DNA of 47,048 nt from Chloroflexota bacterium. Lineage in GTDB: Bacteria > Chloroflexota > Limnocylindria > Limnocylindrales > CSP1-4. The stretch is taken from NCBI GenBank assembly GCA_029778235.1, contig JAKOQS010000124.1, positions 1 through 47,048 of the forward strand, read 5' to 3'. Shown here piece by piece: positions 2,414 through 39,872 of this stretch. The notes below the pieces were generated by a model, which worked only from the letters and a program-made list of their open reading frames with translations, was not told where the DNA came from and searched no databases. The first letter of the stretch is position 1; every line of letters starts with the position of its first letter. Both the position numbers and the translations under genes were made by a program.

Positions 2414-2758
2414 GTGAGCGGCGACGTGCCCGACGCGACCGGCCTCAGCCAGCGCGAGCTGCTGATGGAGATGCGCGAGGACATCAAGGGCCTTCGGGCC
2501 ACCGTCGACGCGATCGCCCGAGACCAGGCGCTCGGGGTGGAGCGACGCGCGAGCATGCAGCGCTCGGCCGACTCGATCTACGCCCGCCTCGACGGGCACG
2601 ACCGCGACCTCGACCGCATGCTCGCTTGGCAGAACCGCGCCGACGGCGCGCTGGTCCTCGCCCGCTGGGCGCTCGGCGCGTCGCTCGTCAGCCTCGTCGC
2701 CGTCGCGCTCCAGGTCGTCGCGACGGTCGGCCACGCCATCAACGCAGGCATCCCGTGA
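2414..2758 (+). CDS. Small coiled-coil protein with C-terminal membrane helix (cassette A anchor)
   Basis: A 114-aa protein. Residues about 12-70 are charged and helical with heptad-like spacing (RELLMEMREDIKGL, then RLDGHDRDLDRM). Residues about 80-108 form one membrane helix (RWALGASLVSLVAVALQVV). By eye 93 of 114 residues match the copy at 37959, with the C-terminal half almost invariant. Many nucleotide differences inside the gene are third-position silent changes, so it is under protein-level selection. The start is uncertain: an in-frame ATG at 2402 aligns with GTG in the other copy, and GTG 2414 is conserved in both. Its stop overlaps the protease start (GTGA). It resembles small phage coiled-coil/holin-like proteins in layout only; function unknown. 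Confidence 0.72.
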   Translation: MSGDVPDATGLSQRELLMEMREDIKGLRATVDAIARDQALGVERRASMQRSADSIYARLDGHDRDLDRMLAWQNRADGALVLARWALGASLVSLVAVALQVVATVGHAINAGIP

Positions 2759-3501: not shown

Positions 3502-3514
3502 CGAAGGAGACGCG

Positions 3515-3739
3515 ATGATCGCAGGACGCAGTGCCAACCTCTACCTCGGTGTGGCGAGTGCCGCCATCGCCCTCGTCTGGGGCGTGGCGGCTGCGGTGGG
3601 CACGCCGTTCCCGCCCGAGCTCGCGGCGGTCGTCCTCGCGTTCATCGGCGCGGTCATCGCCCTCCTGGCGGGCAACGACTCCCTCGCCGTTCGCAAGGGC
3701 GACGCCGCGGCACGCCGACTCGCCACGCGGCGCTCGTGA
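3515..3739 (+). CDS. Small two-helix membrane protein, cassette A
   Basis: A 74-aa protein with two hydrophobic segments (about residues 8-27 and 34-52), a short PFPPE turn between them and a basic C-terminal tail (ARRLATRRS). ATG at 3515 has a strong GAAGGAG site at 3503-3509. It follows the protease by 13 nt and is the third gene of the cassette. Size and topology are those of phage holin-like proteins, but there is no family motif. The equivalent gene in cassette B (39262) has the same layout but little sequence similarity. Confidence 0.65.
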   Translation: MIAGRSANLYLGVASAAIALVWGVAAAVGTPFPPELAAVVLAFIGAVIALLAGNDSLAVRKGDAAARRLATRRS

Positions 3740-19800: not shown

Positions 19801-20016
19801 CGCGTCGTCAACGGCCGCGGCCGGCACCCCGGGGTTGAGACGGGCGAGCGCGGCCCGCAGCCGACGCTCCAGGATGACGTCACGGTACCCCGGGTCGGAG
19901 CGCTCGGCGGCCGCCGTCCCGGCCGCGATCTCGGGGCCGTGGAGGACCGCCCAGCCCAGCCGCCTGAGGACGGCGAGCGCAGCCTCCTCCACGATCGACT
20001 CGGTGAAGGACGTCAC
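16864..20016 (-). CDS. hsdR: Type I restriction enzyme, R (endonuclease/translocase) subunit
   Basis: A 1050-aa full-length HsdR. The PD-(D/E)xK nuclease core has Asp146 and ELK (160-162) in the pattern [10 protein letters not shown]...VIELK. The SF2 translocase has Walker A GSGKS (329-333), DEAH (432-435), FTGTP, and motif VI-like [16 protein letters not shown]. The C-terminal helical region (about 800-1050) binds the M/S core. In the complex it cleaves DNA after translocation from unmethylated sites. GTG 20016 overlaps the stop of the AlbA_2/ATPase gene by 4 nt. All catalytic motifs are intact, so it should be active with HsdM and HsdS upstream. Confidence 0.95.
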
Positions 20017-21773: not shown

Positions 21774-21795
21774 CCCCTCGCAGGCAGTTTCGCTG

Positions 21796-21836
21796 GAGTT
21801 TAGCGAGCCTGCGTATCATGCGCAACTGCTAAACTC
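21796..21836. promoter_or_regulatory. Nested inverted repeats, operator/promoter candidate
   Basis: Outer 9-bp perfect arms GAGTTTAGC (21796-21804) and GCTAAACTC (21828-21836) enclose an imperfect inner palindrome TGCGTATCATGCGCA. The spacer is markedly richer in A/T than the surroundings. It lies 23-63 nt before the ATG of the AlbA_2/ATPase gene (21773), between it and hsdS, where a second promoter of the locus would be expected. Confidence 0.5.
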
Positions 21837-21898
21837 GGGACAAACCCCGCCGGTGGTCGAACCGGTGCGCCGTGATCCTGGGCTCGACAACCAGGGAC

Positions 21899-23105
21899 TC
21901 ATGCCAAGGCAGCCGGCGTGATCCCCTCCGCTTCTGGGAGCAGCTCTCCTGCCAGGAGCTTCGGCAGCAGGGCGTCGCGAATCGCGCCGAGGGTGTTGGA
22001 CTCGTCGGCCGCGATCGCGGCTCGCTCGAGAAGCGGGGTGGCTGCCGCGGAGAAGACCTCCAAGGTCCGATCGTCAGGCACGACAACCGGGGTAGCGGCA
22101 ACCAGAGCGGGCCGAACAGCCGGATAGGCTCCGCCGTCGGCGAGGTGAGCGAGCGCCTCGATGTTCGGGCGTGCGGTCGCCGCCAGATAGGTGAACGCCG
22201 CATCGCGCGGCCGCTTCGGCCGCAGCTGCGCAAAGCCGGTGCTACCAGTCAGGCCGTCCCGCGTGACCAACGCGTACGAGCCGTTTCCTGGACGGACGGT
22301 GCCGAGGATGGTGTCGCGAGGCCGAAGGACCCGTTGGGCTCGGCTCGGCGCTTCATCAGCCGGGTAGTCCGTGACAGCCCCAATCCTCCCCCACTTCGTA
22401 CTGGACAGGTCGACGTAGCGAAGCACTGAAGGCCGATCACGACTCGGCCATACCTCGGGATTGAGGTCAGCGAGATCCTCGAGGGTCCCGTCTACCCAGT
22501 CGTCTGTGCCCGACACACGGGGACTGTCGAGGTCGACGAACCAGGACCGGAAGAGGGTTCGTGCTGTCGCCTCCAGAGTCTCGGTCATCCGGCGATTCAG
22601 CTCGATCTTGTCGTCCAGCGCGCCCAGGATCTCAGCGATGCGGCGCTGCTCGGCGAGCGGCGGTATAGGGAGGCGGAAGTTCGGAACGTCCGCGCACTTC
22701 AGGCTGTCGAAGACGGCGCCCACGTTCAGGAACCGCTCGATCTGGCCCCACCAGGCGGGCCCACGTACTAGCCACCGGAGGAATGGCGGGTAGACGGTCC
22801 GGCCGTCCGATCGGAGCAGCACGAGGTTCTGGCCGAGCGCGAACTCCAAGCCCTCCGGCACGAAAGCGGTGACGCCGGGGTTCGTTCGCCGAGACAGGAC
22901 CACGTCGTGCGGGACCGGGCGCGCCTTCCGGGTCCACGACTCGAAGTCCGCGCGACTGATCCGCCTTGCCGTGGAGACGTCGATGTGGCCGTCACGCAGC
23001 TGCGGTATCGCCACGTACGGGTAGCCGCTCGGGATGGCGGCCGGCGTGCGATGGTCACAGTCGATGAGGGCGACGCCGGCCTCCTCCAGCGACAGCGTGG
23101 GCCAC

Positions 23106-23113
<8 letters not shown>
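21899..23113 (-). CDS. hsdS: Type I restriction enzyme, S (specificity) subunit
   Basis: A 404-aa specificity subunit with two target-recognition domains. The first is residues about 1-150. The central conserved spacer is [25 protein letters not shown] (about 152-176) followed by an [11 protein letters not shown] helix. The second is about 205-365, and ends in the second helical repeat ([15 protein letters not shown]). It binds the bipartite DNA sequence and directs both methylation and cleavage. The GTG start at 23113 overlaps the hsdM stop by 8 nt. The second conserved region is degenerate ([21 protein letters not shown] in place of P...EQ..I), which is common in this family. Confidence 0.9.
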
Positions 23114-24674
<1,561 letters not shown>

Positions 24675-26803: not shown

Positions 26804-27280
26804 ATGCCCGACGACATCACCATCACCGCCGGAGCCGCCCAGGTCGACATCGAGCCCGGCACCTACGAGGTCACGCTCACCGAGATCAGCGAGCCCCGCA
26901 CGATCGTCCCGCGGACCGGCCCCAACGCCGGCAAGGAGGTCACTCTCCGCGACTGGACGTTCGCGCTCGAGGACGGCAGGGAGATCCGCGGATCGGCGAG
27001 CACCTCATCGCACCCGAAGTCCAAGACCGTCGCCTGGCTGACGGCGCTGCTCGGCGGCACGCCCCCCGTTGTCGGGCAGTCCTACCCGCGCTCCGGGCTC
27101 CTCGGTCGCGTGGCACTCGCGACCATCGAGATCGACGCCGACGGCTGGCCGAGGATCACGAACCTCTCGGCACTCCCGAAGGCGCGCGCGGTGGCTCCTG
27201 GCGCGGCTCCGGTCGCGGCTCCCGCGAGGCGGGCGGTCGCGCAGCCGGTCGCGGTCGACACCGACTCGTTGCCCTTCTGA
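26804..27280 (+). CDS. SSB-like/OB-fold DNA-binding protein of the element
   Basis: A 158-aa protein. Residues 1-125 alternate short strands (ITITAGAAQVDIEPGTYEVTLTEI, described by position 5-28) as in phage proteins of the same size that precede replication genes. An Ala/Pro-rich linker follows and the C-terminus is VDTDSLPF, which resembles the acidic tip ending in (L/I)PF used by single-stranded DNA-binding proteins to recruit partners. Next to a primase-polymerase this supports a single-strand DNA-binding role. The OB fold itself is inferred, not seen. AAGGA lies upstream of ATG 26804. Confidence 0.6.
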   Translation: MPDDITITAGAAQVDIEPGTYEVTLTEISEPRTIVPRTGPNAGKEVTLRDWTFALEDGREIRGSASTSSHPKSKTVAWLTALLGGTPPVVGQSYPRSGLLGRVALATIEIDADGWPRITNLSALPKARAVAPGAAPVAAPARRAVAQPVAVDTDSLPF

Positions 27281-27284
27281 CGTG

Positions 27285-29405
27285 ATGCCCGCTCCGGAGT
27301 CGGTCGTCGCCCGCGCGCTCGAGCAGATCGAGCAGGGTTTCGCCGTGTTCGCCCTGCGGGCGGACGCGAAGGTCCCGGTGACTGAGCACGGCTTCAAGAA
27401 CGCGACGACGCGCCCGGACGGGATCCGGCGGCAGCTCGAGTCTCCGGCCGCCGGCAACTACGGCCTCGTCTGGCCAGCCGACAGCCCGGAGCGCGTCGTC
27501 GTGTTCGACCTCGACGACGGCGGCGGCGCGGACCGCCCCTGGCGCGAACGGATGCTCGACCTGGTCGCAGTCCACGGGCCGCTCCCCGCCACCAAGACGA
27601 CGACCACGCCCTCGGGCGGCCGCCACGCCTTCTACCGCTGGCCGGCTGACGCGCCGATCCCCGCGGGCGACGAGCTCTTCGGCTTCACCGTGCGCTGGCC
27701 CGGGCGCGGCTACCTCGTCGGACCCGGCAGCCGCATCGGGGACCGCGAGTACACGGCGGGCCCGGTGGCCGAGATCGCCGAGCTGCCCGCCCGATGGGTC
27801 GAGGCGGCCCTCGCAGAGCGACCCGGTCGCGGCCAGGCGGCGCCCGCCGGCGACGCCATCACCGTCACGCCCAGCTTCTCCCTGCCCGACCGGATCCCCG
27901 CCGGCCGCCGGTATGCCGCCGTCCGCGATTACGTCGCCAGCCGCTACAACGCAGGGCTCGGGCTCGACGAGCTGTGGGAGCTCGTCCGCACCCAGGTCGC
28001 CCCCCGGTTCGAGGTCGCCAAGACCGAGCCGGAGCTCCGGGCCGACTTCGACCGGGTGACCGAGAAGATCGGCGAGCGTCTCGGCGCGCCGGCGCACACG
28101 CCCGAAGTGCGCCGTGCCCCAGGCCCCGGCATGGACGCAGCCGACCTTCTGGGCGTCGACCTGCCGCCCCTGCGCTGGATCGTGCCGGGCCTGATCCCCG
28201 AGGGGACGACGATCCTCGCCGCGCCACCGAAGGTCGGCAAGAGCTGCCTCGTCTACCAGGTCGCGGTCGAGGCGTCGATCGGGGGCGACCTGCTCGGCCG
28301 CCGCGTCGTGCCCGGGAGCGTCCTGTACCTCGCGCTTGAGGACGGCAAGCGCCGCGGACAGCAGCGGCTCCTCGCCGCCCTGGCGGGTCGCACGATGCCC
28401 CGCGGTCGTCTCGAGATCCGGTGGGACGCCCGCAACATCGGAGCCGGGCTCGAGGAGGACATCGCCGACTGGCTCGAGGGCCATCCCGACGCGGTCCTGG
28501 TCGCGATCGACACCCTGGGCAAGGTCCGCGGCGCGTCCGACGGCAGGCGCAATGCCTACGAGGTCGACGTTGCGGCGATGGCCCGGCTCCAAGACCTGTT
28601 CCGCGATCGGAGCGTGGCGCTCCTCATCGTCCATCACGCCCGGAAGGAGTCGACCGACGACTTCCTCACGAGCGTGTCGGGTACCTATGGGATCACCGGG
28701 TCGGCCGACACGATCGTCGTGATCCGCCGCAAGCGCAACGAGGCCTTCGGGACGCTGCACGTCACCGGTCGCGACGTCGCCGACGAGCAGGTCACCGCGC
28801 GGTTCGACCACCTGACGTGGACGGCGGCCCCTGGCGTCCTGTCGGCGGCCTCGTTCGAGCGGGCGGAGGTCTACCGTGTCATCGAGGCGCGCGGCCCGGT
28901 GTTCGCCAAGTCGATCGCCGACGAGCTCGGCATGGAGCGGACCGCGGTCCAGCACCTCGTCGCCGGGCTCGTCGCACAGGGTGCCGTGGCTCGGGTCCGG
29001 GGCGGCTACGTCCCGGCCGAGGTCGTCATCGACACCGCGGAGCCCCTTTCTCTCCCCCTTCACTCCACTCACTCAAAGAGTGAAGAGAGAGATGGGGGAC
29101 ACCCGCCCGCGGGCACGCCCGCACGCGAGGCCGTTTGCACGGCATGTGGCCGGGTGGTTGAGGTCGACGCGACCGGGTTGCTTCGGCCCCATTACCGCGA
29201 AGCCGATCTCGCCACCGCGAAGTGGGGCCGAGGCCCCTGCCCGGGCGTACCTGAGGCCGGTCCACCTCTGCGCGTCGTCCCGGCCGACTCGACCGGCTGG
29301 GTCAACCGCTGCCGATGGTTCCGCGACCACCAGTCCGCCCACCGCCAGACGCCGTCCGGTTGGACGTGCGACGCCTGCTACCCCGAGGAGGGAGATCCCG
29401 CATGA
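27285..29405 (+). CDS. Primase-polymerase / RepA-like helicase fusion
   Basis: A 706-aa replication protein. The N-terminal bifunctional primase/polymerase (prim-pol) domain (residues about 8-180) shows GFAVFALR, the metal-binding VFDLDD (Asp75, Asp77) and SGGRHAFYRW. An AAA_25/RepA-type ATPase follows with Walker A APPKVGKS (313-320), Walker B in VLVAIDT (404-410) and IVHHARK. A winged helix lies near 530-585 (DELGMERTAVQHLVAGL). The C-terminus has two Cys pairs (CTACGR; CDAC) suggesting a zinc finger. It should prime and unwind element DNA. Start ATG 27285 or GTG 27282, 1-4 nt after the upstream stop. Confidence 0.88.
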   Translation: MPAPESVVARALEQIEQGFAVFALRADAKVPVTEHGFKNATTRPDGIRRQLESPAAGNYGLVWPADSPERVVVFDLDDGGGADRPWRERMLDLVAVHGPLPATKTTTTPSGGRHAFYRWPADAPIPAGDELFGFTVRWPGRGYLVGPGSRIGDREYTAGPVAEIAELPARWVEAALAERPGRGQAAPAGDAITVTPSFSLPDRIPAGRRYAAVRDYVASRYNAGLGLDELWELVRTQVAPRFEVAKTEPELRADFDRVTEKIGERLGAPAHTPEVRRAPGPGMDAADLLGVDLPPLRWIVPGLIPEGTTILAAPPKVGKSCLVYQVAVEASIGGDLLGRRVVPGSVLYLALEDGKRRGQQRLLAALAGRTMPRGRLEIRWDARNIGAGLEEDIADWLEGHPDAVLVAIDTLGKVRGASDGRRNAYEVDVAAMARLQDLFRDRSVALLIVHHARKESTDDFLTSVSGTYGITGSADTIVVIRRKRNEAFGTLHVTGRDVADEQVTARFDHLTWTAAPGVLSAASFERAEVYRVIEARGPVFAKSIADELGMERTAVQHLVAGLVAQGAVARVRGGYVPAEVVIDTAEPLSLPLHSTHSKSEERDGGHPPAGTPAREAVCTACGRVVEVDATGLLRPHYREADLATAKWGRGPCPGVPEAGPPLRVVPADSTGWVNRCRWFRDHQSAHRQTPSGWTCDACYPEEGDPA

Positions 29406-30160
29406 CCGCCACCGCCACCCGCCCCGTCGGGGTCGTCCGGACGAAGACGCACCAGTACTACTTCAACGGCGCCGGCCCCTGGCCAGGCGTGACATCGGTC
29501 ACCCGTGTCCTCGACGCACCGGCGTTGACCTCCTGGAAGATGAACCAGGTTGCCCAGGCGGCGATCGCGAGTGCGGAGCGCCTCATCGAGGACCGCGAGG
29601 CGGGCCGGGTCGACGCCGCGGTGAAGTACCTCACCACCCTCTCGACGACCGCGATGGACCGCGGTTCGCGGATCCACGCGTCGATCGAGCAGATCCTCCG
29701 CCGGGAGCCGGCGTCGATCGACCCGCGCGACGAGGCGGCCGTGGCCGGCGCCCGTGCCTGGCTCAACGCGCAGGTCCGCGAGCACGGCCTGCGGCCGCTA
29801 GAGGTCGAGGCGTGCCTCCTCCACGAGACCCTGGGCTACGGGGGGACGTGCGACCTCATCGCCGAGCTCGACGGCGAGGTCTGGCTGCTCGACTGGAAGA
29901 CCGGCTCCTCGGTCGCGACGCCGGACGGCGCCGTGTACCGCGACCACCGCCTGCAGCTCGCGGCGTACGCGAACGCGGAGTTCATCGCCCGGGTCAACGA
30001 TCCGGAGCGGTACCCGCTGCCGGCGATCCCCCGGTACGGGATCGTCCACGTCACCGACGGCGGCACCCGTCTGTACGAGGCGATCGTCACCCCGCGCGAC
30101 TGGGTCGCGTTCCGGGCCGCGCTGAACCTCTACGCCTGGTCGAAGGAGAAGGCGGCGTGA
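29402..30160 (+). CDS. RecB-like PD-(D/E)xK exonuclease
   Basis: A 252-aa nuclease. The Cas4/RecB-type core is visible: GSRIHASIE (His92), then GGTCDLIAELDG (Asp151), LLDWKTG (Asp164, Lys166) and the QLAAYA helix motif near residue 190. Phages use such proteins in recombination and DNA processing. ATG 29402 overlaps the primase stop (ATGA), and its own stop overlaps the RuvC-like gene, so the genes are tightly coupled. Confidence 0.85.
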   Translation: MTATATRPVGVVRTKTHQYYFNGAGPWPGVTSVTRVLDAPALTSWKMNQVAQAAIASAERLIEDREAGRVDAAVKYLTTLSTTAMDRGSRIHASIEQILRREPASIDPRDEAAVAGARAWLNAQVREHGLRPLEVEACLLHETLGYGGTCDLIAELDGEVWLLDWKTGSSVATPDGAVYRDHRLQLAAYANAEFIARVNDPERYPLPAIPRYGIVHVTDGGTRLYEAIVTPRDWVAFRAALNLYAWSKEKAA

Positions 30161-30615
30161 CGAGCGTCCTCGCGATCGACCCTGGCTCCGCCCAGTCCGC
30201 CTGGCTGCGCTTCGACGGCGACCGGCCGCAGGGGTTCGGGATCACCGCCAACGACGTGCTCGTCCGGGCCCTGCGCTCGGGCGGACTCCCCGACGTCGTC
30301 GTCATCGAGAAGGTCGAGTCGTATGGGATGGCAGTCGGGGCCGAGGTGTTCGACACGGTCCTGTGGGCCGGGCGCTTCGCCGAGGCCGCCCATCGGGTGC
30401 CGGTGGTCCTGCTGCCGCGGCGGGCGGTGAAGCTCGCTCTGTGTGGCGACTCGCGGGCGAAGGACGCGAACATCCGCCAGGCCCTGATCGACCGCTTCGG
30501 CGGCAAGGACGCCGCGGTCGGCCGGAAGGCGGCCCCGGGGCCGCTGTACGGGATCTCCCGCGACGTCTGGTCGGCCCTGGCGATCGCCGTCACGTACACG
30601 CTGCAGGCCGCATGA
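30157..30615 (+). CDS. RuvC-like Holliday junction resolvase
   Basis: A 152-aa protein of the RNase H-like fold. Acidic residues are seen at Asp8 (LAIDPGS), Glu51 (VVIEKVESYG) and near the C-terminus in RDVWSALAIAV, matching the RuvC active site order. The length fits phage-type resolvases. It would cut branched DNA formed during replication of the element. GTG 30157 overlaps the nuclease stop; the stop overlaps the next gene (ATGA). Confidence 0.82.
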   Translation: MTSVLAIDPGSAQSAWLRFDGDRPQGFGITANDVLVRALRSGGLPDVVVIEKVESYGMAVGAEVFDTVLWAGRFAEAAHRVPVVLLPRRAVKLALCGDSRAKDANIRQALIDRFGGKDAAVGRKAAPGPLYGISRDVWSALAIAVTYTLQAA

Positions 30616-30824: not shown

Positions 30825-30994
30825 CGGACTCCCTTCCTCCGGCCCCGCCCCGGACCGACCCGCTCGCGGCGGCCCTCGCGTTCGCGATCCGCGAGGCCGT
30901 GCGCCTGGAGGGGGAGCGCGGACGCTTGCCTGCGGCGCCCGACAGAGCGAATGTCGTCCCCATGAAGCCGAAGCCCGAGGCCCGGGTGGCGTGA
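30821..30994 (+). CDS. Small protein between HTH gene and integrase
   Basis: A 57-aa frame beginning ATG 30821, overlapping the HTH gene stop (ATGA), and ending TGA 30992-30994, overlapping the integrase GTG (GTGA). The junctions on both sides are the same 4-nt overlaps used throughout this operon, which is the main reason to call it. The sequence has a central amphipathic helix (LAAALAFAIREAVRLE) and a basic tail (MKPKPEARVA). No family is recognised; an accessory factor of recombination is possible from position only. Confidence 0.6.
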   Translation: MTDSLPPAPPRTDPLAAALAFAIREAVRLEGERGRLPAAPDRANVVPMKPKPEARVA

Positions 30995-32616
30995 CCGCCC
31001 GTGCCCTGCCTCGCTCCCTCGAGGACCTCCGCGGTCGCCGTGCGGCGCGCTGGATCCGCGAGTCCACGGCAGGGCAGGCCGACAACTTCGGGCCCGACGC
31101 GCAGGCCGAACAGCAGGCGAGGGCGATCGAGCGCTGGGGCCTCGTTGAGACGCCCTGGGCCTGGCAGGTCGCGCACTCCGGGCGGACGATCGCGGCGACC
31201 GGCCAGTGGGCCGAGATGCTCGAGGGCGCCGGGCACGACTGGGACGTCCTCGTTGTCGGGTACGTCTCCCGCTTCGCCCGGGACCTCCGCACCGCGGTGA
31301 ACGCCCGCCACGACCTCCACGCCCGCGGGGCGGTGATCCTGTTCGCCGACGAGCGGGTCCTCTCCTCCGACGAGGACGAGTGGGAGCGCTGGGCGCGGGA
31401 GGCGGTCGAGGCCGAGGCGTACAGCCGCCGCCTGGCGAAGCGGATCCGCGAGGGGTACGCGGCGAAGCGGCGACGGCTCGGCGTGCCGGGCGGCAACAGG
31501 GCGCCCTTCGGCACGGTCCGCGACGGGCGGACGCTCCGCGTCGACGAGCCGTCGCTCGCCGTCGTCCGCCGTGTGTACGAGCTCGCGTCGGCCGGCCTCA
31601 CCGACCGCGAGGTGGCCGGGGCAACCGGCCTCGCGCTCAAGCACGTCGCCGAGATCCTCACCAACCCGTTCTACATCGGTCGGCTCTGGTCCGGCGAGCC
31701 GTCCGCCCTCGGCCCGCTCGTCGACCCCTCGACCTGGGACCACGTCCAGGAGCTCCGCGCCCGGTACAGCCGGAGGCACCGCGGCGCCGTGACCCGACGC
31801 CAGTACGGCCTGGGCGGCCTGCTGGCCTGCGCCGCCTGCGGAAGGCGCCTCATCGGGCACGTGGGCCGCTACCGGCACCAGGACGCCTGCGAAACCTTCA
31901 AGGCCGCGGCGCCCAAGCGGGTCCAGGCCGACGGCGAGACGCTCGACCCCCGGGTGCGGGGCGAGTCCTACAAGGTCGCGGTCTACGAGGACGCGATCGG
32001 CCTGGCGCTCGGGCACGTCGCGGTGTCGGCCCGCCTGAAGGCCGCGGTGGTCCCGCTGGCCACGCGGCCGGCACACGAGGGCCCGGACGTCCTGGCGCAG
32101 GCGCGCATCCGCCGGGAGCGCGAGCGGGCGGCCGTGCAGTACGCGCGGGACCGGGACCTCGGGAGGCTGGAGGCGACGATGGCGCGCCTCGACGCCGAGG
32201 CCGCCGCGGCGGCGGAGCGCCCGTCGCGCCTTCCGACGGCGGCCGAGGCGCGCGCCTACCTGGAGTCGCTGCCCGAGCTGTGGGAGAAGACCTCGGACGC
32301 CGGCCGTCACGCGATCGCAGAAGCCGTGTTCGAGCGCATCGACGTCCTGGGGGCCAGCGACTACACCTTCACGCTGACCGCCGCGGCGAAGGCCCGGGGA
32401 TGGGACGCGGCCTTCGGGCCGGGCGTGCTGCGCCTCGAATCACAAGGTGGTCGGGGCAAGACCTCGCACTCGGACGCAGCCTCAGAAGAGGGGGTCCTGA
32501 GCACGAAAGAAGGTCAGTCTGGTCGGGGCGAGAGGCATTGCCCCGCGACCACCGACCTTCTCGTAATGCGGCTCGCCGAGCCGCCCGAGCCGTGCGAGTG
32601 GCTGCGGAGCGCGTGA
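30991..32616 (+). CDS. Large serine recombinase (integrase)
   Basis: A 541-aa site-specific recombinase. The resolvase domain starts with RWIRESTAGQ (nucleophile Ser25 with Arg20/Arg23) and has YVSRFARDL. The recombinase domain follows (GYAAKRRRLGVPGGNRAPFG, then NPFYIGRLWSG), a zinc ribbon (CAACGRRL ... CETF), and a coiled-coil (about 370-420). It would integrate and excise the element at att sites that need not be tRNA genes. The final 50 residues (from about SQGGRGK) are Ser/Gly/Glu-rich and encoded by repeat-containing DNA, unlike the rest. GTG 30991 overlaps the small upstream gene. Confidence 0.92.
   Translation: MTARALPRSLEDLRGRRAARWIRESTAGQADNFGPDAQAEQQARAIERWGLVETPWAWQVAHSGRTIAATGQWAEMLEGAGHDWDVLVVGYVSRFARDLRTAVNARHDLHARGAVILFADERVLSSDEDEWERWAREAVEAEAYSRRLAKRIREGYAAKRRRLGVPGGNRAPFGTVRDGRTLRVDEPSLAVVRRVYELASAGLTDREVAGATGLALKHVAEILTNPFYIGRLWSGEPSALGPLVDPSTWDHVQELRARYSRRHRGAVTRRQYGLGGLLACAACGRRLIGHVGRYRHQDACETFKAAAPKRVQADGETLDPRVRGESYKVAVYEDAIGLALGHVAVSARLKAAVVPLATRPAHEGPDVLAQARIRRERERAAVQYARDRDLGRLEATMARLDAEAAAAAERPSRLPTAAEARAYLESLPELWEKTSDAGRHAIAEAVFERIDVLGASDYTFTLTAAAKARGWDAAFGPGVLRLESQGGRGKTSHSDAASEEGVLSTKEGQSGRGERHCPATTDLLVMRLAEPPEPCEWLRSA
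32509..32560. repeat. Compound inverted repeat in integrase 3' end
   Basis: GAAGGTC (32509-32515) pairs with GACCTTC (32554-32560), and inside it GGTCGGGGC (32521-32529) pairs with GCCCCGCGACC (32540-32550) with one bulge. The inner left arm with flank (GGTCGGGGCGAGA) is also a direct repeat of 32449-32461 (12 of 13 bases). It could be an attachment-site element, a recombinase accessory site or a terminator. Confidence 0.5.
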
Positions 32617-32854
32617 AGCGCCGGCCTTTCCGCCCTGCCGAGCGAGCCACCAACCATGAGGTCGGTGTGGTTGCCGCCGTCCTGGTGGCCGGGTCGGAGA
32701 AGGCGGCCGCCCAACGGCTCGGGCTGCCCCACTCGACCGTCACACGTCTTGTGGCGAGCGCGCACCCGAAGGTAGGGCCGAGACGATGGCGCAGCTGGTG
32801 TGGATCCTGGCGCCGAGGCTGCCCGATCCCACTCGCCGTGGCCCCGTGACTTGA
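32613..32854 (+). pseudogene. LuxR-type HTH gene, apparently frameshifted
   Basis: GTG 32613 overlaps the integrase stop (GTGA). The frame reads an HTH (SEKAAAQRLGLPHSTVTRLVASAHPKVG) and then Arg/Trp/Cys-rich shadow sequence to a stop at 32849. In the neighbouring frame the DNA after 32777 reads AETMAQLVWILAPRLP and ends at 32854. Joining HPKVG to AETMAQLV gives the usual end of a GerE-like HTH (compare LGARTTTQAAVLV in the gene at 30612). One missing base in the GGG run at 32775-32777 explains it. It may be a real mutation, a programmed shift or an assembly error. Confidence 0.6.
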
Positions 32855-32997
32855 CCCACCATCCCCAAGCTCGCGCCAGCCGGCGGTGCCTGGTTATCGC
32901 CTCGCCTGCTCGCGCGGCCACGAGGCGGGCCCTCAGCCTCTTGCGCCTTGGACGGCGGTCCTGTGCAACGGCGGCCGGATGGGCGAGCTCGCGCGGC

Positions 32998-33870
32998 TCA
33001 GGCGCGACGCCGCGTGTGGTCGCGACGTCCAGCAGCGTGTGGCCCGCCACCGGGCTCTGGCAGCGAGGCGAGCGCCGCCCACGACTCGGCATCGCTCGGG
33101 ATCCACTCCTGCCAGCTCAGCTCGTTCCAGATGTCGCAGACGGTGTGGAGACCGATGAAATGGATCGTCGGGCCCACCCCGCGGTAGCTCCACGCCACAC
33201 GGTACTGGTGCCGGATCCGATGCGAGATCGGTTGGGCCTTCTCCCATGCATCGAGCAGACGCCGAAGCTCGCCCGGGTCGCCGTCCGCGAGCTGTCCCAC
33301 GGCATCGCGGTGCCATGGTGCCGGGACCTCGAGATCCGCCTGGATGCGTGGGTCGCCCTTGATCATCCCGAGGAAGAACGCCATCGTCTCCTCGTAGTTC
33401 GCAATGCAGCGCGCGAAGCGGGCGATGCTCGCGCCCGCAAGGAGGTTGCGGGACATCGGGTCGGGGTACTCGCGCTCGACGTCGACGTCCCAGAGGCGCT
33501 CGAACGCGCGGTTCCAGTGCACCACGTAGGAGGCCTGGTTGGTGATGAACGCCGGCCAGGGCAGCTCGTCGGCCTGGCGCCGCAGCTCCCCGGGCTCGGC
33601 GACGTACCGGCGCTCGAGCACGCCTTGCCAGTCGATCGCGTATCCGGCGCCGGCGCGGATCGGGTTCGCCTCGTCGTGGGCGAGCCCGATCGCCTCGATC
33701 ATCTCGTCGAGGGCCCTGGCGCTGGGGCGGCGATCTCCCCGTTCGTAGGCCTTGACCGCTGAGAGCGAGAGGCCGGCGCGGCGGGCGACCTCGGCCTGCG
33801 ACAGGCCGCGCTCAAGGCGGTGCGCTCGGAGCTCGGCGCGCCAGTCGAGCGCATCCCGGAACGATTGCAC
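32998..33870 (-). CDS. XRE-family regulator with MmyB-like ligand-binding domain
   Basis: A 290-aa regulator. The N-terminal HTH_3 domain spans residues about 8-62 (ELRAHRLERGLSQAEVARRAG, abbreviated; then SAVKAYERGDRRPS). The rest (about 85-270) has the layout of the MLTR/MmyB ligand-binding domain, a PAS-like fold (PAFITNQASYVVHWNRAFERL, then EETMAFFLGMIKGDPR). GTG 33870 is preceded by GAGG with 6-nt spacing; the frame is open upstream but not protein-like. It is divergent from the large secreted hydrolase, with two inverted repeats in between, so it probably regulates itself and perhaps that gene. Confidence 0.85.
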   Translation of the reverse strand: MQSFRDALDWRAELRAHRLERGLSQAEVARRAGLSLSAVKAYERGDRRPSARALDEMIEAIGLAHDEANPIRAGAGYAIDWQGVLERRYVAEPGELRRQADELPWPAFITNQASYVVHWNRAFERLWDVDVEREYPDPMSRNLLAGASIARFARCIANYEETMAFFLGMIKGDPRIQADLEVPAPWHRDAVGQLADGDPGELRRLLDAWEKAQPISHRIRHQYRVAWSYRGVGPTIHFIGLHTVCDIWNELSWQEWIPSDAESWAALASLPEPGGGPHAAGRRDHTRRRA

Positions 33871-33895
33871 GCGCCACCTCTGCGTCCACCGCCTC

Positions 33896-33913
33896 TGGTG
33901 CAAGGGCGCACCA
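33896..33913. promoter_or_regulatory. Inverted repeat TGGTGC-N6-GCACCA
   Basis: Six-base perfect arms with a 6-nt spacer, 26 nt upstream of the XRE gene start. XRE regulators commonly bind such dyads at their own promoter. Binding is inferred. Confidence 0.4.
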
Positions 33914-33933
33914 AGGGGACACTGATTGTGACC

Positions 33934-33969
33934 AATTCGTGCTTGTCCGCCTACCCCTGGCCACGAATT
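33934..33969. promoter_or_regulatory. Inverted repeat AATTCGTG-N20-CACGAATT
   Basis: Eight-base perfect arms (33934-33941 and 33962-33969), A/T-rich for this genome, in the 192-nt spacer between the XRE regulator and the secreted hydrolase. The 28-bp centre-to-centre distance would put two half-sites nearly three helical turns apart. Candidate operator or paired promoter elements. Confidence 0.45.
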
Positions 33970-34062
33970 ATCTCGCACTACCACGCTACACGTTTCACGG
34001 GCGACGCCGCGGTAGGGGCCCATGGCGCAACCCGGATGCCGGACGACACTGGGAGGGTACCG

Positions 34063-36630
34063 ATGGGGTCTGTCGCAGGGATCACCCCTCGGAGGATCGG
34101 CGGGGTCGTGGTTGCGTTGAGTCTCGCGGCCAGCATCCTCGCTGGCGCGGTGCCTGTCTCCGCAGTGGCTCCAGCGGCCGCATTCGACTGGTCGATGCCG
34201 CCGCGCACCGGGCTGGACACGGACCACGACGACGTCATCGACGTGATCCCGGACGACGCGATCAACCCGGGCACGTTCCGGGTCGACTTCGACGCCTGCG
34301 GTTCGACGGGCGCGAGCCAGTACCGGTGGACGATCGACGGCGAGCTCGCGGGCGAGACAGCCTCGTGCTCGGGATTCTCGAAGCAGCTTCCCGAGGGCGT
34401 CTACACAGTGGAGCTCGAGACGATCGCAGGAGACGGCTCGACCGGCATCGTCACGAAGCAGGTCACGGTACAGGATTGGCTGATCGTGGCCGTCGGGGAT
34501 TCCTTCGGTTCGGGCGAGGGCAACCCGGACATCCCTGCCACGTACAGCTTGTCCGGTGGGACGGCCCCGACGTGGCAGAGCAAGCGCTGCCACCGCAGCT
34601 CCATCTCGGGCCAGGCCCGGGCCGCGAAGAAGCTCGAGAACGCCGACCCGCACACGTCGGTCACGCTCGTCCATCTCTCCTGTTCGGGCGGAGAGATCCT
34701 CATGGGGCTGGTCGACACCTATGGTGGGATGGAGCCGAACGACACCGCGCACCCGCTGCCGCCGCAGCTCGACGAGGTCAAGAGCCTGGTCGGCGACCGC
34801 GAGATCGACGCCCTAGTCGTGTCGATCGGGGGGAACGACGCACACTTCGGCGACATCGTGATCGGCTGCATGGTCTCCGAGCCGTGCCACCTCGACTCGG
34901 CCGCGTACGTGGGCGGTCTTGAGGTGGCCACGCTGGCTGCGGCGTTCTGCCCGACACTCGACGCGTTCGGGCTCGGCGACGGATGCATCGCCTTCCTCCA
35001 GTCGATCGCCTGGCCGGATCCGAACGCGGCGGGGCTGTTCGCGGACGGACTGGGGGCTCTTGACTCCCGCGCCGGGGCGCTGCACGACCGGGTCGACGAG
35101 CTGTTCCCGATCCTGGCCGCCCACCCCTCCCGCGTCTACTGGACCGAGTACCCGAACGCGACCGAGGACGACGACGGCTCGGTCTGCACGTTCGACCTGA
35201 TGAATCCACTCGCCACGCTTCCCGGTGTCTCGCTGGACGAGGGGACGTGGGTGCGCGGCTGGATGACGCCACGGCTCAACCAGGAGATCTCCGGGAAGGC
35301 GCAGGCGTTCGACTGGACCTACGTGGGCGGCATCTTCGACGCTTTCCACGGGCACGGGTACTGCGCCGACGGCCACTGGTTCCGGCGGCTCGACGAGGCG
35401 TTCCTGATGGAGCAGCACCCCAACGGTGCGGTGCACCCCACCGGGGACGGCCACGCCGTGTACCGCGATGCCATCTACGAGGCGTTGTTCGCGGACTTCT
35501 ATCCCAGCGGCGACATCGGCTCGCCGCGGCCACCGCTAGAGGCGGTGCCGCCGGTGGTGACCGGCGTCCCGGACCGCGTGCCGGACCACGCAGGCTGGTA
35601 CTCGGGCAGCGTGACCATCGACTGGCGAGCGATCGACCCATCTCCGAGCTCTGGGCAACCCACCGATCCGCAGGACACGATCGCAGACCACGAAGGGGCG
35701 AACGTCGTCTACACGAGCGGCGAGAGCTGCGATCCGGCTGGGAACTGCGCGACCGGCTCGCTCACGCTCTCCATCGACAAGACCGCGCCGGTAGTCGCCC
35801 GTGACACCGGCTCGGATGTGTGCTCCCTGCCGGGGAATGACGGCTGGTGCCGCGGCACGCAGACGGCCGGCTTCACCGCCGCCGACGCCACCTCCGGGGT
35901 CTCGTCGCCGTGCAGCGCGACAGCTGGTGTCTCGTGCGCCTACACCCGGGCGACATCGACCCAAGGAGCCGCGGTGATGGTCCCGTCCGGCCATGCGTGC
36001 GACGTGGCCGGCAACTGCGCCCCAGGCTCCGCCGGCGGACCCTTCAAGGTCGACACGACCCCGCCGGCGGTGGCCTGCCGGGCCCCGGTGCCGATGTTCG
36101 ACCTGCAAGCGCCCGGGGCCTCCGTGTCGGCCACGGTGGCGGACGGGGTGTCCGGTCCCGAAGCGGTGACGGTCGCCGGGCCTGCCGACACCTCGAGCGT
36201 GGGCGCGAAGTCGGTCTCGCTTACGGGCCGAGATCAGGCCGGAAACGCGACCACCATCAGCTGCCCGTACTTCGTCGCATACGTCTTCGCGGGATTCGCG
36301 CAGCCGGTCGACAACAGCGGCGTGGTCAACGTTGTCAAGGCCGGGCGAGCGATCCCGCTCCGGTGGCGGCTCACTGACGCGAGCGGACAGCCGGTGACGA
36401 ACCTCGCCACGGCCGGCATCAGCGTCCAAGGTCTCTCCTGCGCCGCGGGGACAACCGAGGACCTGGTCGAGGAGACGACGTCCGGGGGCTCGGGCCTGCA
36501 GAATCTCGGCGACGGCAACTACCAGCTCAACTGGAAGTCACCGACGAGCTACGCCGGCTCCTGCAAGACACTCCGTCTCGACCTCGGTGAGGGAATCTTC
36601 CGGACGGCCCTGTTCCACTTCAAGAGCTGA
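34063..36630 (+). CDS. Large secreted SGNH hydrolase with Ig-like and PxKF-type C-terminal domains
   Basis: An 855-aa exported protein. Signal peptide: residues 1-40 with cleavage near VAPAAAFD. Residues about 45-138 form an Ig/PKD-like domain. The catalytic domain (about 139-490) is a SEST-like SGNH hydrolase with GDSFGSGEG (Ser147), GGND (256-259), many cysteines and the catalytic His in HPTGDGH. Then come two Ig-like repeats with paired cysteines (SCDPAGNCATGSLTLSIDKT; HACDVAGNCAPGSAGG) and a C-terminal PxKF-like domain (GFAQPVDNSGVVNVVKAGRA ... ALFHFKS). ATG 34063 has GGGAGG at 34051-34056. It probably acts on extracellular lipid or polysaccharide esters. Confidence 0.88.
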   Translation: MGSVAGITPRRIGGVVVALSLAASILAGAVPVSAVAPAAAFDWSMPPRTGLDTDHDDVIDVIPDDAINPGTFRVDFDACGSTGASQYRWTIDGELAGETASCSGFSKQLPEGVYTVELETIAGDGSTGIVTKQVTVQDWLIVAVGDSFGSGEGNPDIPATYSLSGGTAPTWQSKRCHRSSISGQARAAKKLENADPHTSVTLVHLSCSGGEILMGLVDTYGGMEPNDTAHPLPPQLDEVKSLVGDREIDALVVSIGGNDAHFGDIVIGCMVSEPCHLDSAAYVGGLEVATLAAAFCPTLDAFGLGDGCIAFLQSIAWPDPNAAGLFADGLGALDSRAGALHDRVDELFPILAAHPSRVYWTEYPNATEDDDGSVCTFDLMNPLATLPGVSLDEGTWVRGWMTPRLNQEISGKAQAFDWTYVGGIFDAFHGHGYCADGHWFRRLDEAFLMEQHPNGAVHPTGDGHAVYRDAIYEALFADFYPSGDIGSPRPPLEAVPPVVTGVPDRVPDHAGWYSGSVTIDWRAIDPSPSSGQPTDPQDTIADHEGANVVYTSGESCDPAGNCATGSLTLSIDKTAPVVARDTGSDVCSLPGNDGWCRGTQTAGFTAADATSGVSSPCSATAGVSCAYTRATSTQGAAVMVPSGHACDVAGNCAPGSAGGPFKVDTTPPAVACRAPVPMFDLQAPGASVSATVADGVSGPEAVTVAGPADTSSVGAKSVSLTGRDQAGNATTISCPYFVAYVFAGFAQPVDNSGVVNVVKAGRAIPLRWRLTDASGQPVTNLATAGISVQGLSCAAGTTEDLVEETTSGGSGLQNLGDGNYQLNWKSPTSYAGSCKTLRLDLGEGIFRTALFHFKS

Positions 36631-36654
36631 CCTGCCGCAGGGAGGGCCGCACTG

Positions 36655-37551
36655 ATGGTCGACCGGGACGACGGAGCCACGTACCTTGCAGAGTTGGCCC
36701 GCCTGGCGCGGAGCCTGGAGGCCGGCGGCATCTACAACGGCGCCAAGCTGCTGCGTGCGCTCATCGACCGGGAGCTCGCTCGCGCAGGCGTGGCCCTGCT
36801 CGACACCGGGGAAGCCGGAGCGGGCGTCGCCCGACTCGCCGATCGACTCGAGGCCGCGGTCGAGGACCCGGCGTTGGTGGCGGCCCTGCGCGCGGCGGCC
36901 GCCGCCGCCGTCGATGAGCGGACGCTGCCCCAGGCGGAGGCGCCACGGACCTGGACCTGCCGGACCTGCGGCCGGATCTCCCTCGGGAGCGTCCCGGAGT
37001 GGTGTCCCGACTGCGAGGCCCCGGCAGCGGCCGCACGCGAGCAGATCCCGGTGTGGTACCTGGAGCCGATGGACCCGGCCGACGCCGTCGCCGGACTGGC
37101 AGCCGGCCTGGTCACGCTGGAGGGCCTCCTGCAGGGACGGCCCGACGACGCGCTCGCCATCCCCCCGCGGCCGGGCGAGTGGTCGGTCCGGGAGACGCTC
37201 CAGCACCTCGTGGCAGCGGAGCGGCTCCTGGCGACGCGGATCCCCCGCCTCCTCGAGGAGACCGATCCCGAGCTGTCCGCCGTCGCCGCCTGGGTGCTGC
37301 CCCCTTCTGACGAGGCGACGACGCCGACCGAGCTCCCGGCCTCGGTGCTGCTGGCCCAGATCCGGGAGATGCGCAACGGGACGCTCGAGCGCCTGCGCGG
37401 CCTCGAGCCCCGGGACTGGGCGCGGACGGGTCGGCACCCCGAGTGGGGCACCGTGACTGTCACCTCGCAGGCCGCCTACTTCACCCGCCACTTGTGGTCG
37501 CATCTCGCACAGGTCCGCGCTGCCGCAGAGGGCCGGGTCCCGTGTCGGTAG
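36655..37551 (+). CDS. Rubredoxin-like zinc ribbon fused to a DinB-like domain
   Basis: A 298-aa protein with three parts. Residues 1-95 are Ala/Leu-rich helices. A rubredoxin-like ribbon (WTCRTCGRI ... PEWCPDCEAP, near 99-123) has two CxxC pairs. Residues about 135-298 are a DinB_2-like four-helix bundle with metal-ligand positions His (LQHLVAAE) and HxxxH-like RHLWSHLAQ, plus HPEWGTVTV. DinB-fold proteins are metal-dependent thiol transferases or of unknown role. The first half also resembles rubrerythrin-type helices, so an electron-transfer or peroxide-related role is possible. GGGAGGG lies 8 nt before ATG. It is 24 nt after the secreted hydrolase, possibly co-transcribed. Confidence 0.78.
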   Translation: MVDRDDGATYLAELARLARSLEAGGIYNGAKLLRALIDRELARAGVALLDTGEAGAGVARLADRLEAAVEDPALVAALRAAAAAAVDERTLPQAEAPRTWTCRTCGRISLGSVPEWCPDCEAPAAAAREQIPVWYLEPMDPADAVAGLAAGLVTLEGLLQGRPDDALAIPPRPGEWSVRETLQHLVAAERLLATRIPRLLEETDPELSAVAAWVLPPSDEATTPTELPASVLLAQIREMRNGTLERLRGLEPRDWARTGRHPEWGTVTVTSQAAYFTRHLWSHLAQVRAAAEGRVPCR

Positions 37552-37662
37552 GGTTGATCGAATGGCCCTCCAGGGTGTGACTGCCTTTCGCGACGTCCCG
37601 ACCTAGCCGCTGCGAGGGTGGCGACGACGCCTTCCTCGCGGCGACGAGCCGCCGCCTGCACC

Positions 37663-37958
37663 CTTGAGGACATGACCGCGCGCTGGTCCGATCCGCGCCG
37701 GCTCCTAGTCCTAGAACACGACCAAGGGCCATCGACGCCTCTCTGGCCGCCTCACCCCTCGGTCACTTGACCGATACCCGCGCGGTCCGCGCGGGTCCAC
37801 TCTCAAGGCGTGGTCCGCCCCCTCGCTCCGATCTGCCCCGCCGCGGCGGGGCCCCGTCTACTGGTCGGCCGCGCCCTCCCCAGTGCCGACCCGGCCCGCC
37901 CCGTCCGACATCGGGGCACCTCCCCTTGCCTGGTGGTCGGCACTCGGTGGCAGCGGCC
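37663..37958 (+). repeat. Conserved leader, copy B (first copy at 2162-2413)
   Basis: Bases 37767-37958 align gap-free with 2222-2413 (21 differences in 192). Further upstream 37663-37704 matches 2162-2204, separated by a 45-nt insertion relative to copy A. The GC palindrome is longer here (CCCCGCCGCGGCGGGG, 37836-37851) because one of the substitutions extends it. No gene is supported in the 400 nt between the DinB gene and the anchor gene apart from this leader. Confidence 0.7.
37759..37774. promoter_or_regulatory. 16-bp palindrome TCGGTCACTTGACCGA, second copy
   Basis: Identical to 2214-2229 and at the same distance from the downstream anchor gene. Conservation of all 16 bases at the very edge of the alignable block, beside an insertion, argues for function, most simply as a repressor or activator site. 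Confidence 0.5.
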
Positions 37959-38303
37959 GTGAGCGGCGACGAGCCCGGGACCGTCGCCATCACCCAGCGC
38001 GAGCTGTTGCTCGAGCTGCGGGAGGACATCAAGGGCCTCAAGGCCACCGTCGACTCGATCGCCAAGGACCGGGCGGCGGGCGTCGAGCGGCGGGCCGCCA
38101 TGCAGCGTTCGGCGGACTCCATCTTCGACCGGCTCGACGGGCACGACCGCGACCTCGACCGGATGCTCGCCTGGCAGAACCGCGCCGACGGGGCGCTCGT
38201 CCTCGCCCGCTGGGCACTCGGCGCGTCGCTCGTGTCCCTGGTCGCCGTCGCGCTCCAAGTCCTCGCCGTAGTCGGCCACGCCGTGAACGGAGGCATCCCG
38301 TGA
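37959..38303 (+). CDS. Small coiled-coil protein with C-terminal membrane helix (cassette B anchor)
   Basis: A 114-aa paralogue of the protein at 2414-2758 (93 of 114 identical by eye). From SADSI to the membrane helix (RLDGHDRDLDRMLAW, then ALVLARWALGASLVSLVAV) only one or two residues differ, whereas the first 20 residues vary. One membrane helix near residues 80-108. GTG start conserved with copy A; an upstream in-frame GTG (37947) aligns with ATG 2402. The stop overlaps the protease start (GTGA), as in cassette A. The strong conservation of the coiled coil and helix suggests a fixed partner or homo-oligomer. Function unknown. Confidence 0.72.
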   Translation: MSGDEPGTVAITQRELLLELREDIKGLKATVDSIAKDRAAGVERRAAMQRSADSIFDRLDGHDRDLDRMLAWQNRADGALVLARWALGASLVSLVAVALQVLAVVGHAVNGGIP

Positions 38304-39265
38304 CAGACGACCTGCTCCCCGGCCTGGGCTGGCTCGAGTCCTCGCCAGACGAGCGCGACTGGGGCGTCGACGCCCTGTACGCGGCCACCGGCACCGAGCC
38401 GCCCGCCGAGCTCCCCGCGGCGTACCACGTGCCTCCGCCGCTGTACCCGGTGGTCGACCAGGGCAGCAGCCCGATGTGCGTGGCGTACAGCGCCGCGGGC
38501 GAGCAGGGCTGGTACGACCTGCGGGACACGGGCCTCGCGCTGTTCGACGAGCCGCTGTTCTTCCGCCAGATCGGGGGGACCTCGAGCGGCGCGGTCATCC
38601 GCGACGCGCTGAACCAGCGGCTGGCTGCCGGCTACCCGGTCGCCGGTCACGCCGACCAGGCCGGCTCTCACCGCATCGCCGCGTACTACGCGGTCCCGGT
38701 GGCTCCGTCGGACCTGTGCGCCGCGATCCTGTCCTTCGGGCCGGTCGTGATCGGCACGCCCTGGGCGAGGGCTTGGTTCCACCCGGTCGACGGCGTGCTC
38801 CCAGCGTTCGACACGGCGGTCGGGGGCCACGCGATCCTCGCCGTGGGCTGGGACGCGGCCGGCCTGCGACTGCGCAACTCGTGGGGCGCCGACTGGGGCC
38901 AGGGCGGCGAGGCGACGCTGGCGTGGTCGCAGCTCCCGCACGTCCGCGAGGCGTGGAAGGCGGTCGACCGGATCGAGCCCAGGCCCGTCCCGGCCTGGCG
39001 CATCCGCGTCGCCCACGGCGCGACCGTCGTCCACTACGCCGTCGACGCGCACGGCCGCCTCACGGACACGCGGCGGTACGCCTGGAACGGTCATGACAGC
39101 GGCGCCCCCTGCGGCCAGCCGGCCGTGAAGCGGGGCGCGTCGAGCGGGCAGGCGACCGTCGCCCACGTCACCGCGGGCGTGTTCAAGGGGCGCTGGGTGC
39201 GGATCGGCGCCGGCGTGACGGCGTCGAGCACGCTGGCGAGAACTCCCGAGGAGGTCCCGGCATGA
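38300..39265 (+). CDS. Papain-like (C1-type) cysteine peptidase, cassette B
   Basis: A 321-aa papain-fold peptidase with complete active site: Gln and Cys60 in DQGSSPMCVAY, His177 in GGHAIL, Asn193 in NSWGADWGQGG. It is about 70 residues longer than the cassette A protease, with a C-terminal domain (residues about 225-321, VPAWRIRVAHGATVVHYAVDAHG by position) that looks like a small beta-rich binding domain and is absent from copy A. No signal peptide. Start and stop overlap both neighbours by 4 nt. Outside the active-site motifs and the N-terminal GLGWL...DERD signature, similarity to the other protease is low. Confidence 0.82.
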   Translation: MTDDLLPGLGWLESSPDERDWGVDALYAATGTEPPAELPAAYHVPPPLYPVVDQGSSPMCVAYSAAGEQGWYDLRDTGLALFDEPLFFRQIGGTSSGAVIRDALNQRLAAGYPVAGHADQAGSHRIAAYYAVPVAPSDLCAAILSFGPVVIGTPWARAWFHPVDGVLPAFDTAVGGHAILAVGWDAAGLRLRNSWGADWGQGGEATLAWSQLPHVREAWKAVDRIEPRPVPAWRIRVAHGATVVHYAVDAHGRLTDTRRYAWNGHDSGAPCGQPAVKRGASSGQATVAHVTAGVFKGRWVRIGAGVTASSTLARTPEEVPA

Positions 39266-39447
39266 AGGTCTCCGGCACGTTCGCGCCGGCTGCGTTCGTC
39301 ATCGTCATCGGCTGCGTGGGCGGCCTGCTCGCGGCGCTCTTCCCGTCCGACGCCAACCCCTGGGTCGTGCCCGTGACGGCGGCGATCACCGCGTTCGCCG
39401 CCCTGGTGCGCACCGAGTTCCACGTGCCGGAGTCGGACGCGCCGTGA
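39262..39447 (+). CDS. Small two-helix membrane protein, cassette B
   Basis: A 61-aa protein with hydrophobic segments at about 9-27 and 33-48, separated by FPSDANP, and a polar tail. GAGGAGG precedes ATG 39262, which overlaps the protease stop. It is the positional equivalent of the 74-aa protein at 3515 and has the size and topology of small holin-like proteins. It ends in a GTGA overlap with the HNH gene. Confidence 0.65.
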   Translation: MKVSGTFAPAAFVIVIGCVGGLLAALFPSDANPWVVPVTAAITAFAALVRTEFHVPESDAP

Positions 39448-39872
39448 TCCGCACCTGCGAGGCGGGGCACCCGCCCATTCGCATCCCCTCGGGGACGAGG
39501 TGCCCGGCCTGCGCGCGCGCCCGGGAGGAGCGACGCCCCTCGCGCGAGGCGCGCGGGTACGGGCGCGTGCACGCGGCGGCGCGGCGGGCGCTCGTCGAGA
39601 TGTGTCGCGAGCGGGGCGCCGTGGCCTGCGCGTACGGGTGCGGGACGCTCGTGACCGCGGAGACGGTGGTCGCGGCGCACGTCGTGGACGGCCGTCCAGA
39701 CCTCGGCTGGATGCCGTCGTGTGCGCGGTGCAACGAGCGCGCCAAGCACGCCGACCGGGGTGGGGGTAGGCCTCAGGAGGGCGCGGATCGCGCCACACCC
39801 GCGCCCTGGCAATCCGAAGTCCGCCCGGGTTTTTGCGTTTTTTGGCTTACCGATGCTCCGTTGGGCTGCTAG
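39444..39872 (+). CDS. HNH endonuclease-like protein
   Basis: A 142-aa protein. An N-terminal zinc pair (CEAGHPP ... CPAC) is followed by a basic helix, then the HNH-like core: CAYGC, the His in VVAAHVVDGRPD, and CARCNERAK with the Asn/Lys end. Phage HNH proteins of this kind usually lie near packaging or lysis genes. The last 35 residues run through a T-rich terminator-like stretch (CVFWLTDAPLGC) and overlap the M24 gene on the other strand by 4 nt, so the natural C-terminus may have been lost. GTG 39444 overlaps the preceding stop. Confidence 0.72.
   Translation: MIRTCEAGHPPIRIPSGTRCPACARAREERRPSREARGYGRVHAAARRALVEMCRERGAVACAYGCGTLVTAETVVAAHVVDGRPDLGWMPSCARCNERAKHADRGGGRPQEGADRATPAPWQSEVRPGFCVFWLTDAPLGC
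39804..39843 (+). terminator. Probable rho-independent terminator of cassette B
   Basis: CCCTGGC (39804-39810) pairs with GCCCGGG (39823-39829) with one mismatch, followed by T5, GCG and T6. It is one of the few homopolymer T runs in the window. It lies inside the last codons of the HNH frame. Confidence 0.5.

Follow-up and report, generated by a model that had tools for sequence, protein, structure and literature searches.

The block that occurs twice in the window (the whole stretch of DNA analysed, 47,048 nucleotides) is, with a probability of about 0.87, the lysis cassette of temperate tailed phages of this Chloroflexota group that carry a large serine integrase, and its copies A and B would be the remains of two related prophages. 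This reading is drawn from sequence comparisons and is based on relatives of the block in phage genomes, on copies that contain an Amidase_2-LysM enzyme and a holin, and on the SH3 domain of some of the phage proteases. The gene order of these phages runs from an integrase with an attachment core in its 3' end through variable cargo to the leader, an XhlA-like membrane protein, the endolysin and the holin, and from there through an HNH-like gene (and ParB-like and methyltransferase genes) to TerS, TerL, portal, capsid, tail and early genes.

Two blocks in one contig and their leader

The source genome is a metagenome-assembled genome (MAG) of 366 contigs, and the window is one entire contig. 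Copy A (about 2117-3739) and copy B (about 37646-39872) lie on the plus strand, 35 kb apart (Table 1), and no copies beyond these two were found in a DNA-level search of the source genome. A pre-leader block is common to both (2117-2209 in A, 37646-37705 in B), the leaders (2210-2413 and 37755-37958) are identical at 183 of 204 positions (89.7%) with no gap, and the gene for a 114-aa membrane protein (hereafter the anchor) is 83.3% identical in DNA and 82% in protein. The protease genes that follow are 51% identical in DNA, and the 500 bp further upstream of the blocks are at background level (49%). These values confirm what an earlier note on this DNA had described, i.e., two same-strand blocks in which a common leader and anchor are nearly fixed and are followed by differing, divergent enzymes. 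The possibility of an assembly artefact, raised in the same note, was not borne out: with a difference of about 15% between the blocks, and with unlike enzymes, an assembly duplicate is ruled out. Both proteases start in a GTGA overlap (2755 in A; 38300 in B). The next two genes of copy B overlap too (ATGA at 39262, GTGA at 39444), and the small membrane gene of copy A begins 13 nt past the protease stop.

Table 1. Positions of the features in the window (Pfam models are named where they gave the label).
Feature	Position	Strand	Evidence
Copy A, pre-leader block and leader	2117-2413	+	DNA comparison with copy B
Copy A, 114-aa membrane protein	2414-2758	+	Sequence, hydropathy, identity to copy B
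Copy A, papain-like enzyme, proposed endolysin	2755-3501	+	Motifs; no Pfam match
Copy A, small two-TM protein, proposed holin	3515-3739	+	Homologue in G000:C166; weak holin matches only
Early region of the same phage type	24791-30615	+	Identity to 42-kb phage contig G177 (L063)
DUF669-like gene	26804-27280	+	Label by inspection
Primase/helicase	27285-29405	+	Pfam Prim-Pol, AAA_25
PD-(D/E)XK exonuclease	29402-30160	+	Pfam PDDEXK_1
RuvC-like gene	30157-30615	+	Label by inspection
Large serine recombinase (integrase)	30991-32616	+	Pfam Resolvase 1.8e-11
Attachment core TGGTCGGGGCGAGAGG (32520-32535) and conserved tail, 3' end of integrase ORF	32520-32616	+	Unsplit, attP-like
Variable cargo, integrase tail to cassette	32830-37645	.	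HTH regulator, GDSL-like, DinB-family protein (Pfam)
Copy B, pre-leader block (37646-37705) and non-coding leader (37755-37958)	37646-37958	+	Palindrome CGGTCACTTGACCG, GC-rich hairpins
Copy B, 114-aa membrane protein, XhlA-like architecture	37959-38303	+	Phage homologues
Copy B, papain-family C1 enzyme, proposed endolysin, Q/C/H/N motifs intact	38300-39265	+	PF00112, phrog_16701, model
Copy B, small two-helix membrane protein, proposed holin	39262-39447	+	Position, hydropathy; no HMM support
HNH-like gene after copy B	39444-39872	+	Conserved in relatives; weak HMM support

The leader is GC-rich and more conserved than the coding sequence downstream of it. A coding leader was ruled out, because the differences show no excess at third codon positions and one relative has a broken frame. 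At its start the leader has a palindrome (CGGTCAACTGACCG or CGGTCACTTGACCG), and several GC-rich hairpins can form in it; in one sequence, one of the helices shows a compensatory change. Such leaders were found at the two positions in the window and in L004, L005, L006, L044, L009, L010 and L049, and in the genomes searched the palindrome is essentially confined to these leaders and their remnants. There is a second leader type, different in sequence, in which much the same succession of hairpins seems to be kept; the cassettes of L003 and L029 have the pre-leader block without the leader. A regulatory role is plausible, and the leader is possibly an unrecognised regulatory RNA or operator; an Rfam search gave no match. 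A mobile unit bounded by the palindrome alone was rejected: nearly every locus with enough flank has an integrase tail, equally oriented, at a distance of 2.6-7 kb upstream, which places the cargo between integrase and leader within the phage.

Phage relatives and the enzymes behind the anchor

Searches with the anchor found it in IMG/VR contigs and in two further MAGs of Chloroflexota, and nowhere in the named phage collection. In the IMG/VR loci L008, L010 and L029 the cassette is followed within 1-6 kb by the late genes TerS (Terminase_4), TerL (phrog_9) and portal, and a similar order was found in G007:C85 and in contig C320 of the source genome itself. The order in L008 and L010 is cassette, HNH-like gene, ParB-like gene, cytosine methyltransferase (the latter two labelled by inspection), Terminase_4, TerL phrog_9 and an SPP1-type portal. 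The 42-kb contig with L029 reads integrase, cargo, cassette, TerS, TerL, portal, head/tail genes, tape measure, accessory genes and early genes, and also holds a primase; because the gene upstream of its integrase recurs at its far end (overlapping ends), it is, as judged from its sequence, a nearly complete siphophage. Of the two origins that the earlier note had considered, phage lysis genes are thereby upheld: on intact phage contigs TerS, TerL and portal come directly after the block. A papain-like enzyme together with TM genes and a terminase was also found in L072, L076, G007:C85 and C320. The defence genes PbeA and PbeC adjoin the early region of the 42-kb phage (L063, 6691-10962, plus strand).

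The anchor has a charged N-terminal helix and a single C-terminal TM segment, as seen from sequence and hydropathy. XhlA of PBSX has the same topology, an N-terminal helix and a single C-terminal TM segment, and the anchor shares its architecture as a short protein of this build in a predicted lysis operon. The XhlA model was not matched in a Pfam scan at E <= 1, and we therefore call the anchor XhlA-like and not XhlA. Its comparison with Pfam, PHROG, NCBIfam and PADLOC gave no significant family match, so that the proposed role in lysis rests on position and architecture.

Listing the gene behind each anchor, a check proposed in the earlier note, gave C1 or papain-like enzymes in some copies and an Amidase_2-LysM enzyme in others. 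A GTGA-coupled papain-like enzyme stands behind the anchor in L006, L008, L009 and L010, and an amidase-type gene in L003, L004 and L005. Pfam found Amidase_2 and LysM in L003 (5e-16) and L005 (8e-14); the enzyme of L008 combines Peptidase_C1 with SH3_3 (8e-6), both just below the curated Pfam cut-offs. Cassettes of this type thus carry predicted wall-hydrolase genes (Amidase_2 plus LysM in L003 and L005, C1 plus SH3_3 in L008), those of A and B being C1-like.

Protease B belongs to peptidase family C1. Its motifs DQ-x5-C, GGHAI and NSWG are all intact, with the catalytic Q, C, H and N; it scores 24.0 bits against PF00112 (cut-off 20.7, Pfam) and 3e-18 against phrog_16701 ('peptidase'), and the modelled fold agrees, the catalytic domain (residues 9-225) being mostly above pLDDT 80 with xylellain and papains as structural matches. 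Among viral structures, the model matches phage proteins labelled as peptidase, 'Peptidoglycan binding-like' and 'N acetylmuramidase'. Protease A had no match in the Pfam scan and aligns with protease B at E = 0.013 (BLASTP). It has DQ-x5-C and GGHAI, while NSWG reads QSWG (catalytic N to Q), and NSWG is intact in a relative that the source genome also encodes (G000:C166; 46% identity); the assignment of protease A to the papain-like family is supported by these motifs and this relative. Nothing was found with protease A in named phages or IMG/VR, and neither protease contains a CHAP, NlpC-P60 or C39 domain in Pfam. The earlier description of both as GTGA-coupled papain-like proteases stands for the coupling and, with PF00112, for B; for A it is based on the motifs and on the relative in G000:C166.

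Papain-type and amidase-type predicted endolysins are interchangeable behind a fixed membrane protein and leader, in agreement with the earlier idea of a constant leader and membrane protein carrying exchangeable enzymes; the slot holds either C1 or Amidase_2-LysM enzymes. The 'interchangeable effectors' of the earlier note are most likely endolysins exchanged between phages. Named phages have cysteine proteases in their lysis cassettes, one of which is described as a predicted endolysin. In the source genome, contigs C166 (L105) and C320 (L062) have a near-identical small TM protein before two different papain-like enzymes, so that an exchanged enzyme is seen once more behind a membrane protein that stays the same; in C320 the terminase genes come after the enzyme.

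The third genes of A and B encode small hydrophobic proteins. They are unrelated to each other, as the earlier note had stated, but that of copy A has a clear homologue, a 74-aa two-TM gene behind the related enzyme in G000:C166. A PHROG/HMM search gave no above-noise holin match for either protein; the small gene after the amidase of L003 matches the holin family phrog_9752 (4.2e-11). In all 15 loci with C1 or papain-like enzymes the enzyme has an adjacent small same-strand TM gene (15/15; background 22%), and in 9 of the 15 on both sides (background 5%), the background being taken from the remaining genes on the contigs; since neighbours were compared in related contigs, full independence of the counts is not given. 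The HNH-like gene that the earlier note had placed after copy B is present and conserved in relatives, and its HNH label has weak HMM support (phrog_2323, E = 0.17). The phage homology of copy B stops at about 39842, inside the 3' end of this gene, and the same right end is common to the solitary cassettes of L003, L006 and L046; we suspect a packaged genome end (cos) at this place.

Integrase, attachment core and cargo

The larger early genes upstream of the integrase in the window are 68-89% identical in protein and 77-84% in DNA to those of the 42-kb phage contig G177 (L063), and a small gene at 25015 has 63% protein identity to it. Type I restriction-modification genes lie directly left of this early region (16864-24662, minus strand) and may be phage cargo or belong to the host. 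The window contains no structural phage genes.

Homologues or fragments of the integrase were found in many cassette loci. Four arrangements of the core are found in relatives (integrase-core-tail, host-core-tail, integrase-core-host and host-core-host), which we classify as the attP, attL, attR and attB types to be expected, respectively, and the junction of integrase and cargo in the window is attP-like and not a clean attL or attR. Integration would alter the C-terminus of the integrase, because the core lies inside the 3' end of its ORF. The core resembles the 3' end of a tRNA, and a tRNA attachment site was considered and rejected, ARAGORN finding no tRNA at any locus.

Each cassette locus has unrelated genes between integrase tail and leader. 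The interior of the cargo in the window has no DNA in common with relatives, and conserved blocks are present on both of its flanks. These boundary blocks are repeated in the cargo slot (window 32616-37760; L003, L006, L010, L029), e.g., the left block three times in L003 and the right block twice in L029, which suggests that cargo genes have been captured repeatedly. A protein with a match to TmtA, a defence model of PADLOC, is the cargo in L010 (1253-5848, minus strand) and L008 (465-5246, minus strand).

Alternative readings, known systems and a possible mechanism

The earlier note had favoured an unnamed, possibly domesticated system of anchor and protease effectors. A corresponding reading of the solitary cassettes, as a host membrane-plus-protease device (for programmed lysis, particle release or competitor killing), would explain why the ORFs of A, B, L003, L005 and L006 are open with no structural phage genes beside them, and the dN/dS of the anchor between A and B is about 0.33. 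This purifying selection could, however, have acted within phages, and the flanks contain the integrase and attachment-type remnants. The anchor is present in 9 of the 177 genomes of the class and absent from the other three genomes of the genus. Decay is evident in many host copies: L007 has a frameshift and a truncated leader, the leader is fused to the enzyme end in L045 and to the HNH-like gene in L047, L050 contains insertion sequences, and the enzymes of L049 and L052 are truncated or frameshifted. The decay and the absence from the other genomes of the genus argue against domestication, which we consider very unlikely; the picture fits decaying prophages, not a device that the host conserves. 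With an Amidase_2-LysM enzyme found in the slot and a holin after it, the unnamed system gives way to a block that belongs to ordinary phage modules with a predicted holin/endolysin role, the very outcome by which the earlier note would have abandoned it.

Papain-type proteases have other roles in viruses generally, and the C1 enzyme could be a protease of virion maturation or DNA entry, the real endolysin being encoded elsewhere. L106 (G070:C315, 1894-8373) has a relative of protease A together with small membrane and capsid-like genes with no Pfam matches; it looks like a non-tailed virus of Chloroflexota, and its separate lysozyme-like gene would suit such a role. We nevertheless regard a virion protease as unlikely, since an Amidase_2-LysM enzyme occupies the same slot, some C1 forms have an SH3 domain, a small TM gene adjoins the C1 or papain-like enzyme in every locus, and the viral structures matched by the model include the peptidoglycan-related proteins named above. 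A membrane-tethered toxin or defence module with exchangeable effectors would likewise combine a constant membrane protein with variable enzymes, and the phage cargo adjacent to the cassette includes defence genes such as TmtA; it is extremely improbable, because no cassette protein had a PADLOC match (E <= 0.01) or an above-cut-off NCBIfam match, the cassette sits in phage late regions, and a peptidoglycan amidase, accompanied by a holin, is likewise encoded in the slot.

Under the lysis-cassette reading, the leader would drive late expression after induction, the membrane protein and the small holin of two to three TM segments would permeabilise the membrane, and the soluble enzyme would then reach and cut the cell wall. 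The enzyme slot would be exchanged by recombination between phages and may therefore hold a papain-family C1 peptidase or an Amidase_2-LysM amidase, the former acting presumably on wall peptides or wall-bound protein. That the papain-type protease is the sole lysis enzyme, cutting envelope protein or peptide and not glycan bonds, and that the structured leader switches the slot on, is a speculative extension that we consider rather doubtful.

Among the closest known systems is xhlA-xhlB-xlyA of PBSX (Bacillus subtilis), an operon that encodes a membrane protein working together with the holin (XhlA), the holin itself (XhlB) and an endolysin (XlyA), all three of them required for lysis-linked vesicle release (PMC5589764). 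The gene order differs from PBSX, the endolysin being second in this cassette, the anchor lacks the Pfam XhlA match, and the enzyme can be a C1 papain and not an amidase. A papain-like cysteine protease stands beside holin or membrane genes in the Gordonia phages Lilbeanie (where it adjoins the holin) and BetterKatz (gp29, described as predicted endolysin; PMC4982276) and in Arthrobacter phage Mufasa8 (where it is near lysin A). In these phages the protease accompanies a lysin A or glycosyl hydrolase, whereas none was seen within the present cassette, and their lysis cassettes come after the tail genes while this one precedes the terminase. In Thermoanaerobacterium phage THSA-485A the gene of a GH25 endolysin is immediately followed by that of a C1A papain, so that two enzymes stand side by side, and this papain is 25% identical to protease B. 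Xylellain and the papains/cathepsins (Peptidase_C1) share fold and catalytic motifs with the enzymes of the slot but are about 16-22% identical, and the phage forms differ in their SH3 or other C-terminal parts and their viral lysis context. Cysteine proteases are thus already annotated in phage lysis cassettes (Gordonia, Arthrobacter and Thermoanaerobacterium phages), and in most named phages they occur alongside a classical endolysin and do not replace it; the slight novelty lies in a cassette whose sole recognisable wall hydrolase is a papain of the C1 type, interchangeable with an amidase.

What was a puzzling duplicated cassette can now be read as a phage module, which provides lysis genes together with an integrase and sites of attachment type for phages of the poorly studied, mostly uncultured Chloroflexota. 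If it were true that the C1 enzyme alone lyses the cells, the catalytic types of endolysins would extend to classical papain-family peptidases, and this would be informative on the envelope of these bacteria.
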